A stretch of DNA of 64,000 nt from Streptosporangiales bacterium (GTDB lineage Bacteria > Actinomycetota > Actinomycetes > Streptosporangiales > WHST01). A program made the translations under genes and the position numbers. Position 1 is the first letter of the stretch, and each line of letters opens with the position of its first letter. The notes under the pieces are model-generated. The model was not told where the DNA came from and made no database searches. It saw only the letters and a list, made by a program, of their open reading frames with translations. Below are positions 9,781-14,994 of the stretch, in pieces. Where the stretch lies: the NCBI GenBank assembly GCA_009379825.1, contig WHTA01000002.1, positions 1-64,000 of the forward strand, in the 5' to 3' direction.

Positions 9781-10678
9781 ATGACACCCCCATTCGCCGC
9801 CGTCTCGTTGGCCGGTCTGGTCAAGCGGTACGGGCCGACCACCGCCGTCGACGGGGTGCAGCTGGCCGTCGCACCCGGTGAGGTCGTGGCGTTGCTCGGC
9901 CCGAACGGCGCCGGCAAGTCCACGACCATCGACATGATGCTCGGCCTCACCCGGCCGGACGCGGGCACTGGGGAGCTGTTCGGGCGACCGCCGCGCGCCG
10001 CGATCGCGGCCGGCCAGGTCGGCGCAATGCTGCAGAACGGGCAGCTGCTGCCGGACATCACCGTGACAGAAGCGGTGGCCCTGGTCGCCTCGCTGCACCA
10101 TAACCCGGCGGCCGTCGGCGAGGCGCTGGCGCGTGCGGGCATCGAGCAGCTGGCCAGGCGCAGGACCGGCAGGCTCTCCGGCGGGCAGCAGCAGCGGGTG
10201 CGGTACGCCATGGCGCTCGTCGCCGACCCGGACCTGATCGTGCTGGACGAGCCGACGGCCGGGATGGACGTGGAGTCGCGGATCGCGTTCTGGCGGTCCA
10301 TCCGCGCCGAGACCACGGCGGGCAAGAGTGCTGTTCGCCACCCACTACCTGGCCGAGGCGGACGAGCAGGCCGACCGGGTCGTGGTGCTGAACCGGGGCA
10401 GGGTCGTCGCCGACGGCTCCGCCGCCGAGGTCAAGTCCGTGGTGTCGAGCCGGCTGGTGTCGGCGACGCTCCCGGCGGCCGACGCCGGGCGGCTGCGGCT
10501 GTTGCCCGGCGTCGACGACGTCACCGTGCACGGCAGCACGGTGCAGCTGCGGTGCAGTGATTCCGACGCCGCGCTGCGAGCGCTGCTCGCCGCGTACCCA
10601 CGGGCCGAGCACCCGGAGGTGACCGGTGCCGACCTCACCGCGGCCTTCCTCACCCTGACCGGTGGAGCGGACGAATGA
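9781..10678 (+). pseudogene. ABC-2 exporter ATPase, frameshifted
   Basis: The ATPase of a DrrA/NatA-like exporter. Frame 1 (from ATG 9781) carries Walker A GPNGAGKST, the signature LSGGQQQRV and Walker B LIVLDEPTAGMD. At about 10320-10330 the homology jumps to another frame, where FATHYLAEADEQADRVV (H-loop) continues to 10678. One base lies between the Lys codon of TTAGK and the GTG of the new frame, so one base was gained or two lost. Without correction the protein lacks the switch histidine and its C-terminal third. It overlaps the permease start by 4 bp, as in an intact operon. Sequencing error cannot be excluded, but the kinase downstream is broken too. Confidence 0.85.
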
Positions 10679-11400
10679 GCCTGACCTATCTGCGCGTCGA
10701 GATCATGCGGCAGGTGCGGGACCCGAGGACGCTGATCTTCACCGTGGCGATGCCGTCGGTGCTGTTCCTGATCTTCAGCAACACCAGCAGCGGTGAGCTC
10801 GGTGGCATCTCGTCGAGTGCCTACCTGATGGTGAGCATGGCCGCGTACGGCTCGATCGGCGCGGCGATGTTCTCCGCGTCCGGCATCGCGCTCGAACGCA
10901 GGATCGGCTGGAACAGGCAGCTGCGGCTGACCCCGTTGCCGCCGCAGGCGTACGTGCTCGTGAAGGGGACCGTGGCGTGGCTGGTGACGCTGGTGGGGCT
11001 GTTGCTGGTGTACCTCGTCGGTCTCGGCTGCGGGGTCGACCTGACGTGGACGCGGTGGCTGGAGTCGCTCGCCGCCACCTGGCTCGCGGTGCTGCCGTTC
11101 GTGCTGCTCGGTATCGGCATCGGGTACGTCGGCAAGGTCGACCTGGTGCAGCCCGTGACCATGATCGTGTTCCTCGGCATGTCGATCGTCGGCGGGCTGT
11201 GGGTGCCGGTGCAGGCGATGCCGGACCTGCTGGCACAGCTGGCCAGGGTGGTGCCTTCGTACTGGCTCGGCGCCGCCGGCCGGGCACCGCTCGGCGCACC
11301 GGGCTTCGGGGTCGAGGGCGTGCTCGTGCTGGCGGCCTGGGCCGTGCTGTTCGGCGGGCTCGCCGCGTGGCGGTACCGGGCAGACACCACCCGCGTGTGA
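10675..11400 (+). CDS. ABC-2 type transporter permease
   Basis: Membrane component of 241 residues with about six hydrophobic segments, beginning with the typical ABC-2 entry YLRVEIMRQVRDPRTLIFTVAMP. The start overlaps the ATPase by ATGA. The frame is intact although the partner ATPase and the sensor kinase downstream are disrupted. Exporters of this type with a NarL-family two-component system usually handle peptides, antibiotics or lipids. No substrate can be assigned. Confidence 0.88.
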   Translation: MSLTYLRVEIMRQVRDPRTLIFTVAMPSVLFLIFSNTSSGELGGISSSAYLMVSMAAYGSIGAAMFSASGIALERRIGWNRQLRLTPLPPQAYVLVKGTVAWLVTLVGLLLVYLVGLGCGVDLTWTRWLESLAATWLAVLPFVLLGIGIGYVGKVDLVQPVTMIVFLGMSIVGGLWVPVQAMPDLLAQLARVVPSYWLGAAGRAPLGAPGFGVEGVLVLAAWAVLFGGLAAWRYRADTTRV

Positions 11401-11414
11401 CGGGGCGGAGTACC

Positions 11415-12486
11415 GTGCAGGACATGGCAGGCGACGGCGAGCGGCCCCCGTTCGAGGAGCCGAAGTTCCCCGGCAGGCGATGGAGCTGGCTGTTGGCCGG
11501 GGTGTGGCTGCTCTACCTCGTCTACCCGGTGACCGACCTGGCCACCTCGGCCCGGCCGTGGTGGCAGGTGGCCGCGGGTGTCGCGCTCACCGTGGCGTTC
11601 GCGGGGGTCTACCTGCTTGCCCTGCGCTGTGGGCTGGCCCCTGACCTCGGGCGCGGTGCGCACTGGCGTGCGTGCCGCTCGGGCTGCTCGCGATCACCGG
11701 CTGCATGGTCCTGCTCGTCGGGCTGGCGAGCAGCACCTACCTGGTGTTCAGCATCGTCGTGGCGATCGCGCTGTGGCGGCCCGCGGCGAGCCTGGCGCTG
11801 ACGGCCGTGGCCGTCGGGTGGGCGTCGTACCTGCTGCCGCGGCTGCTCGGCGAACCCCCGGTGGTGGAGCTCGTCGTCATCATCGTGGTGGTGGCCGCGC
11901 TCATCTACGTGCTGCGGCACCTGCAGCGGCAGCAGGCGGTGACCCGCAGGGCGCGCGAGGACATGGCGCAGCTGGCTGTCGACGCGGAGCGGGCCAGGTT
12001 CTCCCGCGACCTGCACGACATCGTCGGGCACAGCCTCACCGGCATCATCGTGAAGGCGGAGCTCGCCGCCGCGTTGGCGAAGCGGCGGCCGGGTACCGGG
12101 AGGTCACGCTCGCGGGCGAGCTGGCGTCGGCCCGTGCAGTGCTCGACGCCGCGGGGATCGTGGCGGACCTGCCGGCCGCGGTCGACGAGGTGCCGGGCGA
12201 GCTGCGTCAGCTGTTCGGCTGGGTGGTCCGCGAGGGGGTGACGAACGTGGTGCGGCACAGCCGGGCGCACACCTGCCGGATCGCCGTTACCGCCATGTCG
12301 GTGACGGTGGCCGACGACGGGCGCGGCGCGAAGGCGGCGGACGGCAACGGGCTCACCGGGCTGCGGGAGCGCGTACAGGCGGCCGGTGGCACGGTGACCG
12401 CCGACGCCCCCGCCGGCGGCGGGTTCCGGCTGCACGCCGCGATGCCGGCGCACGAGCCGGCCGCGGACCGCGGGGTGCCGGCATGA
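11415..12486 (+). pseudogene. Sensor histidine kinase with frameshifts and deletion
   Basis: A DesK/NarX-type kinase split over three frames. It starts at GTG 11415 (GGAG just upstream) with membrane segments, shifts near 11650-11672 into a frame with further membrane segments and the H-box FSRDLHDIVGHSL, and shifts again near 12090-12105 into a frame that carries YREVTLAGELASARAVL and the ATP-binding region with ADDGRGAKAADGNGLTG. Between AALAKRR and AGYREV about 30 residues usual for the family (the second dimerisation helix) are missing, so the second lesion is a deletion as well as a frameshift. The last codons overlap the response regulator (ATGA). Confidence 0.82.
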
Positions 12487-13091
12487 CCATCACCGTGCTA
12501 CTCGCCGACGACCAGAACCTGGTGCGGGGCGCGATGGCCGCGCTGCTCTCGCTGGAACGCGACATCGAGGTCGTCGCGCAGGTCGACCACGGCGACCGGG
12601 TGGTCGCGGCGGCCGAGCAGGCACGGCCGGACGTCGCGCTGCTCGACGTGCAGCTGCCCGGGCTGGACGGCATCGCCTGCACGGCCGCCCTGCGGGAGAC
12701 GGTGCCGACCTGCCGGGTGCTGGTCGTCACGACCTTCGGCCGGCCCGGCTACCTGCGGCGGGCGATGGAGGCGGGCGCGAGCGGGTTCATGGTGAAGGAC
12801 GCGCCCGTCGAGCAGCTCGCGGACGCGATCAGGCGGGTGCACGCGGGGCTGCGGGTGGTCGACCCGGACCTGGCGGCCGCGTCGCTCGCGGCGGGGGAGT
12901 CGCCGCTGACCGCGCGGGAACGCGACGCGCTCGTGGCGGCCCGCGACGGCGGCACCATCGCCGACCTCGCCGGGCGGCTGTACCTCTCCGAGGGAACGGT
13001 GCGTAACTACCTGTCCAGCGCGATCGGCAAGACCGACACGAGGACCAGGGCCGAGGCGGCCCGGGTGGCGGAGACACGCGGCTGGCTCTGA
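12483..13091 (+). CDS. NarL/LuxR-family response regulator
   Basis: A 202-residue regulator. The receiver domain occupies residues 1-120 with the acidic pair D9/D10 and phospho-acceptor Asp55 in LLDVQLPG. The LuxR-type helix-turn-helix covers roughly 135-195 (LTARERDALVAARDGGTIADLAGRL, then LSEGTVRNYLSSAIGKT). It starts inside the last codons of the kinase gene, so it was built to be co-translated with it. With the kinase broken, the regulator is probably orphaned or served by another kinase. Confidence 0.92.
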   Translation: MTITVLLADDQNLVRGAMAALLSLERDIEVVAQVDHGDRVVAAAEQARPDVALLDVQLPGLDGIACTAALRETVPTCRVLVVTTFGRPGYLRRAMEAGASGFMVKDAPVEQLADAIRRVHAGLRVVDPDLAAASLAAGESPLTARERDALVAARDGGTIADLAGRLYLSEGTVRNYLSSAIGKTDTRTRAEAARVAETRGWL

Positions 13092-13201: not shown

Positions 13202-14134
13202 ATGCGTACGAGCACTCCGAGGGTCTCCGCTGGTCGTCGCGTCCTGGTCACGGGTGGTGCGGGTTTCATCGGCACCGCGGTGGTCGACGCGTTGGTGGCG
13301 GCCGGCGACGAGGTCGTCGTCGCCGACCGCAGGCCGCCGGCCAACCGCGAGGTCGCGTACGTAGCCGGCGACCTGCTCGACCCCGCGATCCGCGAGAAGG
13401 CGTTCGCGGCCGGCGTCGACGCCGTCGTGCACCTGGCCGCGTTCACGTCCGTGCTGCGCTCCGTGGAACGGCCGGCAGACTGCCTGCGGGCCAACGTGGA
13501 GCTCACCGCACAGCTGCTCGAACTGTCCAGGCTCCGCGACGTCGGAACGTTCGTGCTTGCGTCCACGAACGCGGTCGCAGGCGACCACGGCACCACGCCG
13601 ATCACCGAGGACTCCCCGCTGCGCCCGATGTCGCCGTACGGCGCCACCAAGGCGGCGGCGGAGATGCTGCTCGCCGGGTACGCGGGCGCGTACCAGATGA
13701 CCACGTCGGCGCTGCGGTTCTCGAACGTCTACGGGCCGGGCATGCAGGAGAAGGACAGCTTCGTGCCGCGGCTGATGCGTGCGGCGCTGACCGGCACCGG
13801 GGTAGAGGTCTACGGCGACGGTGAGCAGTGCCGCGACCTGGTGCACGTCGACGACGCGGTGCAGGGCGTACGGCTGGCTCTCGCCGGCCAGCTGCCCGGC
13901 CCGGCGATCATCGCGTCCGGACAGTCGGTGACGGTGAACGAGCTGGTCGCCGCGGCGCGCGAGGTGACGGGCGCGCCGATCCCCGTGACGCGCGTGCCGG
14001 CGAAGGCCGGCGAGATGCCCGCCGTCGTGGTCGACGTCGCGCGCTCCCGCGCCAGGGGCTACGTACCCGGCCACGACCTGGCGTCCGGGTTGGCTACCGT
14101 ATGGGACGACTGGCGCCCGGCCGAGACCGGGTGA
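13202..14134 (+). CDS. NAD-dependent sugar epimerase/dehydratase
   Basis: Extended short-chain dehydrogenase of 310 residues. The dinucleotide-binding GGAGFIG is at 18-24 and the catalytic Tyr/Lys pair is in SPYGATKAAAE, preceded by an ASTNAVAG serine strand. This fits UDP-glucose 4-epimerase-like enzymes that make nucleotide sugars. The stop overlaps a possible GTG start of the glycosyltransferase gene by 4 bp, so the two are one operon. With the GT2, GtrA and SQD1-like genes nearby it probably supplies a sugar for a surface glycan. Confidence 0.88.
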   Translation: MRTSTPRVSAGRRVLVTGGAGFIGTAVVDALVAAGDEVVVADRRPPANREVAYVAGDLLDPAIREKAFAAGVDAVVHLAAFTSVLRSVERPADCLRANVELTAQLLELSRLRDVGTFVLASTNAVAGDHGTTPITEDSPLRPMSPYGATKAAAEMLLAGYAGAYQMTTSALRFSNVYGPGMQEKDSFVPRLMRAALTGTGVEVYGDGEQCRDLVHVDDAVQGVRLALAGQLPGPAIIASGQSVTVNELVAAAREVTGAPIPVTRVPAKAGEMPAVVVDVARSRARGYVPGHDLASGLATVWDDWRPAETG

Positions 14135-14166
14135 ATACCTGCGAGCTGTACGGGAAGGCGACCGAG

Positions 14167-14994
14167 GTGACGACTACCGACGTCGAACCGGCCATCGACG
14201 ACACCGACACGCAAGCCCTGCGCGCGTTCGCGCAGGAGTACGGCGACGCCAGGTTCAGTCCTGTCGTGATCATCATCGCGGCGTACAACGAGGCGCAGGG
14301 GATCGGTGCGGTCGTCGAGCGGATACCGCGGTGTAGCTGCGGCATGGACGTCCAGACGCTCGTCGTCGATGACGGCAGCCCGGACGCGACCGCAGACGCC
14401 GCCCGCAGGCACGGTGCGTACGTCTGCCGCGCGCCGCGCAACCGCGGCCAGGGTGCGGCGCTGCGGCTTGGCTACCGGCTCGCGAGGGAACGCGGCGCGC
14501 AGTGCCTCGTCACCACCGACGCGGACGGCCAGTACGACATCGAGGAGCTGCCGCTGCTGCTGCAGCCGCTCGTCGACGGCACCGCGGACTTCGTCACCGG
14601 GTCCCGGGTGCTCGGCAGCCACCAGGCGACCGACGTCGCTCGGCGGGTGGGCACGCCGGTGTTCGCCTGGTTGGTCAGCGCGCTGACCGGGACGAGGGTG
14701 ACCGACACGTCGTTCGGGTTCCGCGCGATGCGCGCCGAGGTCACCGGCGACGTCACGCTCGCGCAACCGCAGTACCAGTCCTCTGAGCTGCTGATCGGCG
14801 TGCTCGCCCGGGGCTACCGCGTGCTCGAACAGCCGATGCGCATGCTGCGCCGCAACCAGGGCAGCACGAAGAAGGGCGGTTCGGTCGTCTACGGCTGGAA
14901 CTACTTCCGCGTGGTGGTCGGCACCTGGCGGCGGGAACGCGGCCGGAACAGGCGGTCGAGGAGCACGAAGCGGCCGGCGAAGAGCACCGCGTAG
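14167..14994 (+). CDS. GT2 glycosyltransferase (polyprenyl-phosphate sugar type)
   Basis: Family 2 glycosyltransferase of about 275 residues, GT-A fold. It shows VVIIIAAYNEAQGIGAVV, VVDDGSPD and the DADGQYD metal site near residue 120, and it lacks C-terminal membrane spans. It resembles dolichol-phosphate mannose synthases and bactoprenol glucosyltransferases, which commonly pair with GtrA flippases; a gtrA-like gene lies next door. GTG 14167 has GGGAAGG eight bases upstream; GTG 14131, overlapping the epimerase stop, is also possible. Its last 94 bases are antisense to the 3' end of the GtrA gene, giving a basic tail rich in R and K. Confidence 0.87.
   Translation: MTTTDVEPAIDDTDTQALRAFAQEYGDARFSPVVIIIAAYNEAQGIGAVVERIPRCSCGMDVQTLVVDDGSPDATADAARRHGAYVCRAPRNRGQGAALRLGYRLARERGAQCLVTTDADGQYDIEELPLLLQPLVDGTADFVTGSRVLGSHQATDVARRVGTPVFAWLVSALTGTRVTDTSFGFRAMRAEVTGDVTLAQPQYQSSELLIGVLARGYRVLEQPMRMLRRNQGSTKKGGSVVYGWNYFRVVVGTWRRERGRNRRSRSTKRPAKSTA

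Follow-up and report, generated by a model that had tools for sequence, protein, structure and literature searches.

In Bacillus subtilis, the yvfRS-yvfTU operon carries genes for an ATPase, a permease, a kinase, and a regulator, in the same order as at the locus described here. Also in B. subtilis, a kinase, a DNA-binding regulator, and an ABC transporter are encoded together, as they are here, in the linearmycin- and amphotericin-responsive locus lnrJK-lnrLMN (formerly yfiJK-yfiLMN); the LnrJK pair switches on LnrLMN, an ABC transporter linked to linearmycin resistance (PMC7472640, PMC4672918). As described there, the kinase and regulator genes of lnrJK-lnrLMN come first and are followed by three ABC genes, whereas the order here is ATPase-permease-kinase-regulator, and the two loci are likened by gene content. 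By analogy with LnrJK-LnrLMN and from its own anatomy, the most likely role of an intact operon of the present type is the inducible export of membrane-active compounds. In intact relatives, the kinase would most likely sense such a compound and phosphorylate the regulator, and the exporter would thereby be switched on, as gene order and the LnrJK-LnrLMN system suggest.

The locus lies within the window, by which we mean the whole 64,000-nucleotide stretch that was analysed (C2:1-64000 of a 6.15-Mb draft genome, G000, in 169 contigs). On the plus strand, between positions 9781 and 13091, Pfam searches identified genes for an ABC ATPase, an ABC-2 permease, a HisKA_3 histidine kinase, and a LuxR-type response regulator. 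The four genes stand in this order on one strand, and the ATPase and kinase genes are not intact. The features are as follows.

9781..10327, plus strand, ABC exporter ATPase, N-terminal part; the frame continues to a stop at 10560
10323..10328, plus strand, frame break 1; 2 nt net shorter than both relatives and outside a homopolymer run (DNA alignment)
10328..10678, plus strand, ABC exporter ATPase, C-terminal part; in a different frame from the N-terminal part
10675..11400, plus strand, ABC-2 type permease, open; Pfam ABC2_membrane, 7.5e-13
11424..11655, plus strand, sensor kinase, N-terminal part; the frame continues to a stop at 11801
11654..11672, plus strand, frame break 2; about 4 nt net shorter than G002, the size being uncertain
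11672..12091, plus strand, sensor kinase, middle part, which includes the first half of HisKA_3; the frame continues to a stop at 12241
12085..12091, plus strand, frame break 3; 79 nt shorter than both relatives, with a short direct repeat and the second half of HisKA_3 missing
12085..12486, plus strand, sensor kinase, C-terminal ATP-binding part in a third frame; Pfam HATPase_c
12483..13091, plus strand, LuxR-type response regulator, open; Pfam Response_reg, 1.1e-23, and GerE, 6.1e-7

The gene identities given in the initial annotation, which had been made from the sequence alone, were correct (Pfam ABC_tran, ABC2_membrane, HisKA_3, HATPase_c, Response_reg, and GerE). Its claim that the permease and response regulator remain open also held, each gene occupying one frame by open reading frames, Pfam, and tblastn with orthologues. 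The regulator combines a receiver with a GerE helix-turn-helix, as in the LuxR type (83.9 and 29.4 bits, respectively, both above the gathering score). The stop-start overlaps said to be preserved across the operon were found at two of its three joints, with ATGA at the ATPase/permease joint (10675) and at the kinase/regulator joint (12483), but not at the permease/kinase joint, where 23 nt separate the stop (ending at 11400) from the ATG at 11424.

Among 40 relatives, only two genomes, G001 and G002, belong to the same genus, and the genomes nearest to the window showed 73 to 81% DNA identity. Orthologous operons on contig C15 of G001 and contig C59 of G002 have the same four genes and the same neighbours, with 39 to 85% identity depending on the part compared. 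In both, the ATPase, permease, kinase, and regulator each lie in one open frame, in contrast to the broken ATPase and kinase of the window. The permease was 67 to 68% identical to its counterparts in the two congeners and the regulator 81 to 85%. The neighbours common to all three include a GNAT protein (Pfam) and what we take to be rseP, ispG, and an epimerase gene. At 13828-14994, the window also encodes a glycosyltransferase without a long N-terminal part (about 490 to 500 residues, hydrophobic by eye) that G001 (L029:4494-6767) and G002 (L030:3768-7001) have ahead of it within a single open frame; the shorter form is either a deletion or a domain difference.

The two ATPase parts both resemble the orthologous proteins. 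The N-terminal part was 72 to 75% identical to those of G001 and G002 over 181 residues and contains ABC_tran (residues 24 to 160 of window:9781-10359; E = 1.4e-29), and the C-terminal part was 63 to 68% identical to the orthologues over 116 residues and covers positions 178 to 223 of the drrA profile. When the G002 ATPase was used as a tblastn query, frame 3 was matched up to 10335 and frame 1 from 10328, and a codon-usage scan that uses no alignment to relatives switched frame at 10328. Together with DNA alignment, these methods all placed the change at about 10326 to 10328, where a frameshift near 10325 had been reported.

The kinase is spread over three frames. Its N-terminal part was 39% (G001) and 56% (G002) identical over 71 residues and gave no Pfam match at E = 0.001, and its C-terminal part was 68 to 73% identical to the relatives. 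In tblastn, the match in frame 2 ended at 11639 (G001) or 11666 (G002), that in frame 1 ran from 11654 or 11672, respectively, up to 12091, and that in frame 3 began at 12073; the codon-usage scan switched at 11662 and 12082. The changes fall at about 11655 to 11670 and about 12088, which agrees with the shifts near 11660 and 12100 noted earlier. The size of the first of these is taken from a single usable DNA alignment, that with G002. The second carries a GGCCGG/GCCGG repeat at the join and a loss of 79 nt, or about 26 codons by DNA alignment; a loss had been predicted at this point and was found, at a size below the 30 or so codons proposed. Pfam matched positions 1 to 36 of the 68 of HisKA_3, compared with 1 to 67 in the intact G001 and G002 kinases, and no single frame of the window kinase holds a complete HisKA_3 together with the ATP-binding domain. 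HATPase_c was recognized in the window (E = 2.3e-6; 28.5 bits versus a cut-off of 26.4) and is weak in the congeners, at 24.0 bits, below the same cut-off, in G001 and unlisted in G002. The three breaks span 1.8 kb, in line with the earlier count of three lesions in less than 2 kb.

We compared 93 related loci, 80 of them covered by up to 12.7 kb and 13 by only about 3.7 kb, with 4 pairs being the same stretch twice. The ATPase-permease-kinase-regulator order was found in 83; of the rest, 3 had no regulator match and 7 had matches to the ATPase and permease only. This recurrent order suggests that the kinase is the sensor of the adjoining exporter. When the window, L029, and L030 were added (96 sequences, five pairs being the same stretch twice), tblastn recovered the ATPase in one frame in 95, only the window being split, and the kinase in one frame in 87 of the 89 sequences with a kinase match, although this test would miss small breaks near gene ends. 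The breaks in the operon are neither ancient nor conserved. The other split kinase, in a related operon of Acrocarpospora corrugata (L115), was matched in two frames with 57% of the query covered and is possibly an independent break. We also considered whether the split genes might yield working proteins by programmed or tolerated frameshifting, through recoding or translation restart. The second part of the ATPase begins with a GTG at 10328, and the second part of the kinase with one at 11672. However, relatives keep both genes in one frame in the proportions just given, and the 79-nt loss takes half of HisKA_3, which is beyond restoration by recoding. Programmed frameshifting was judged unlikely because the break is not conserved in relatives, and we regard recoding or restart of any kind as very improbable indeed.

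The reading that we favour, to which we would give an even chance, is that a widespread actinobacterial operon of ATPase, ABC-2 permease, HisKA_3 kinase, and LuxR-type regulator is present here as a recently inactivated copy. Under this reading, we infer that the lesions are present in the organism itself. The ATPase would then be cut before its C-terminal part and the kinase distributed over three frames without half of HisKA_3; with both so affected, pump and signalling should fail if the sequence is right, their functions presumably being lost, and the system should be off in the window's genome. The permease and regulator may still be open because too little time has passed since inactivation.

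No second intact copy of the operon was seen in the same genome, where the best other regulator was 56% identical and the best other ATPase, among the 150 scored out of 229 candidates, 44%. A second kinase-regulator pair, both genes open, occurs on contig C64 (L031:8698-10394); it consists of a 367-residue kinase and a regulator 56% identical to that of the window, and it adjoins a membrane protein that is CPBP-like by eye. Conceivably, the regulator and permease are retained in a new role now that their partners are lost, with the regulator driven, for example, by the kinase of the C64 pair. The two genes are indeed open and not unusually diverged, and the C64 regulator is related to that of the operon. 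Unbroken genes are, however, also expected under very recent inactivation, and no ATPase above the 44% identity given for the scored candidates appeared among the matches listed, a replacement partner for the permease thus not being evident. We consider retention for a new use quite unlikely.

The age of the lesions was estimated from nonsynonymous divergence. On the window lineage, the ATPase parts had estimated dN values of 0.111 and 0.177 and the kinase parts values of 0.212, 0.234, and 0.098, compared with 0.160 for the intact permease, 0.081 for the regulator, and 0.042 to 0.107 for four neighbours. Some broken parts were more diverged than the neighbours, but likewise on the other two lineages; the ratio of dN to the mean of G001 and G002 was about 0.7 to 1.6 for broken parts and 0.7 to 1.9 for intact genes, the permease being highest, in a comparison of point estimates. 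Since divergence, measured relative to G001 and G002, is no greater in the broken parts than in the intact adjoining genes, the lesions are either young or not real. A few dozen neutral substitutions accompanying three indels might be invisible in such dN values; recent decay is therefore allowed, and long decay is not suggested. It counts against decay that all three lesions would need to be recent, because dN relative to the two congeners is no higher in the broken parts than in intact neighbours. The initial annotation had posed the alternatives of recent decay and a local assembly problem. The word "recent" is compatible with dN, whereas "local" applies only in part, as similar breaks occur elsewhere in the sampled genome.

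The main rival explanation is that weakly covered or wrongly joined stretches of a high-GC draft assembly produced the breaks and that the operon of the organism is intact and working. That the broken parts look as constrained as intact genes, with the regulator and permease untouched, fits this explanation, as does the frequency of breaks in the 169-contig draft. With a codon-usage frame model trained on long open reading frames of G000 and G001, a strict rule returned 24 breaks over 861 kb and 274 same-strand junctions of the window's genome and 4 over 810 kb and 247 junctions of G001, a rate more than five times that of the congener (binomial P = 0.00017; without the operon, 21 versus 4, P = 0.0008), which argues against decay. 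The strict count is 24 rather than 25 after removal of a site in infB (window 25529), a false alarm in which a Gly/Arg/Pro-rich low-complexity N-terminal region, open in one frame, mimics another frame. Looser lists held 48 sites in the window's genome and 14 in G001, false alarms included, as judged by reading. For five of the strict sites (C2:70179, C3:42576, and the three in the operon), the DNA of intact relatives served as a check, and the remaining 19 of the 24 depend on the codon model and on how their translations read; an ADH-like gene at C2:109415, which is on the loose list only, was checked in the same way. The six aligned sites, all outside homopolymer runs, differed by -2, about -4, and -79 nt in the operon and by -2, -1, and +4 nt at the other three places; homopolymer sequencing error was unsupported at these net changes of 1 to 79 nt. 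Indels of this size outside homopolymer runs are not known as the usual long-read error, which speaks against a sequence fault. An orthologue-based scan for frame changes between the samples of G000 and G001 gave none in 58 and 62 gene alignments (53 and 56 kb); it also missed the operon, probably through its overlap filter, and it was set aside as insensitive.

The breaks also cluster, which is expected once a gene is free to decay and speaks against a sequence fault, although poorly covered stretches could have the same effect. Three breaks fall within 1.8 kb in the operon, versus 21 others in the 861 kb sampled, and 5 adjacent pairs lie less than 1.5 kb apart versus 0.94 expected (P = 0.0017). 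Without the operon, the clustering is weak (3 pairs versus 0.72 expected; P = 0.03), and two of those pairs are the three sites in one transporter-like gene on C8. That cluster lies at G000:C8:6670-7183 (L197), and another, at G000:C5:22988-40540 (L193 and L194), involves several genes. The 79-nt loss with a short repeat at its ends would favour decay, being of the kind that replication slippage gives; a join at a short repeat may also be an assembly product. Decay would likewise be favoured by the three frame changes relative to two congeners, with the ATPase in one frame in all of the 96 sequences but the window.

Random sequence faults should not discriminate between conserved and accessory genes. 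In G001, 10 of 28 broken genes outside the operon (3/10 plus 7/18; 17 genes from the strict list and 11 from the loose list only) had a homologue with 50% identity or more, and so did 12 of 20 intact genes picked at random (Fisher P = 0.14); with the threshold raised to 60%, the counts were 6/28 and 9/20 (P = 0.12). The comparison is a weak one: the E-value limit was uneven, at 1e-15 for 10 broken genes and 1e-6 for the other 18 and the intact genes, and the 12/20 is a lower bound with 150 of 335 first-look candidates scored, homologues of at least 50% identity having been counted by eye. Adding the operon's ATPase and kinase, which are conserved in G001, gives 12/30 broken genes and weakens the contrast further. 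The lean of broken genes toward having no close homologue is thus not significant, and this, with the conservation of the operon's own ATPase and kinase, counts against decay. Near G000:C1:10249 (L143), a methionyl-tRNA-synthetase-like gene is apparently frame-broken, and a different, open copy on C14 backs it, which counts for decay. This second copy and the homologue contrast lean slightly toward real decay without deciding. No broken universal single-copy gene was recognized by eye among the flagged sites, a sample of little power, which goes a little against a sequence fault.

A gene reading like an error-prone DnaE2-type polymerase is apparently frame-broken near G000:C1:117565 (L185), the corresponding stretch of G001 being 78% identical and without stops. 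On a broader view, which we think rather unlikely, this uncultured lineage is in an early genome-wide wave of gene loss, the operon being one of many casualties. The genes hit would then range over transporters, methyltransferases, oxidoreductases, and an error-prone polymerase (as named by reading), all caught before their remains lost their coding signature. Scaled from 861 kb to 6.15 Mb, the 24 breaks would become about 170. Genes with frame transitions numbered 206,991, or about 187 per genome, in an ab initio survey that covered 1106 complete prokaryotic genomes (PMC3711429), and by that figure the window's genome is not extreme, the methods differing between the two counts. A literature search on frameshifts in metagenome assemblies found nothing on point. 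We favour recent real decay over a fault in the draft, which we nonetheless give a chance not far short of even.

The operon type is common, and its loss is ordinary whether by decay or by sequence fault; the broken operon raises no new question. Its message is mainly one of caution: the lesions are real in the sequence, and biological decay cannot be called without reads because the sampled draft is rich in apparent frame breaks. If real, they offer a small example of an inducible exporter lost together with its sensor. Among drug exporters, the likeness to DrrAB-type ABC-2 systems is one of profiles, with all scores below the curated cut-offs. The best NCBIfam profile of the intact congeners' ATPases was drrA (TIGR01188; 184.6 and 187.5 bits versus 312.45), and the window permease matched the DrrB family (TIGR00025) weakly (25.6 bits versus 146.9); on these scores, assignment to the DrrAB daunorubicin exporter was rejected. 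Compared with lnrJK-lnrLMN, the window differs in that its ATPase and kinase are broken.
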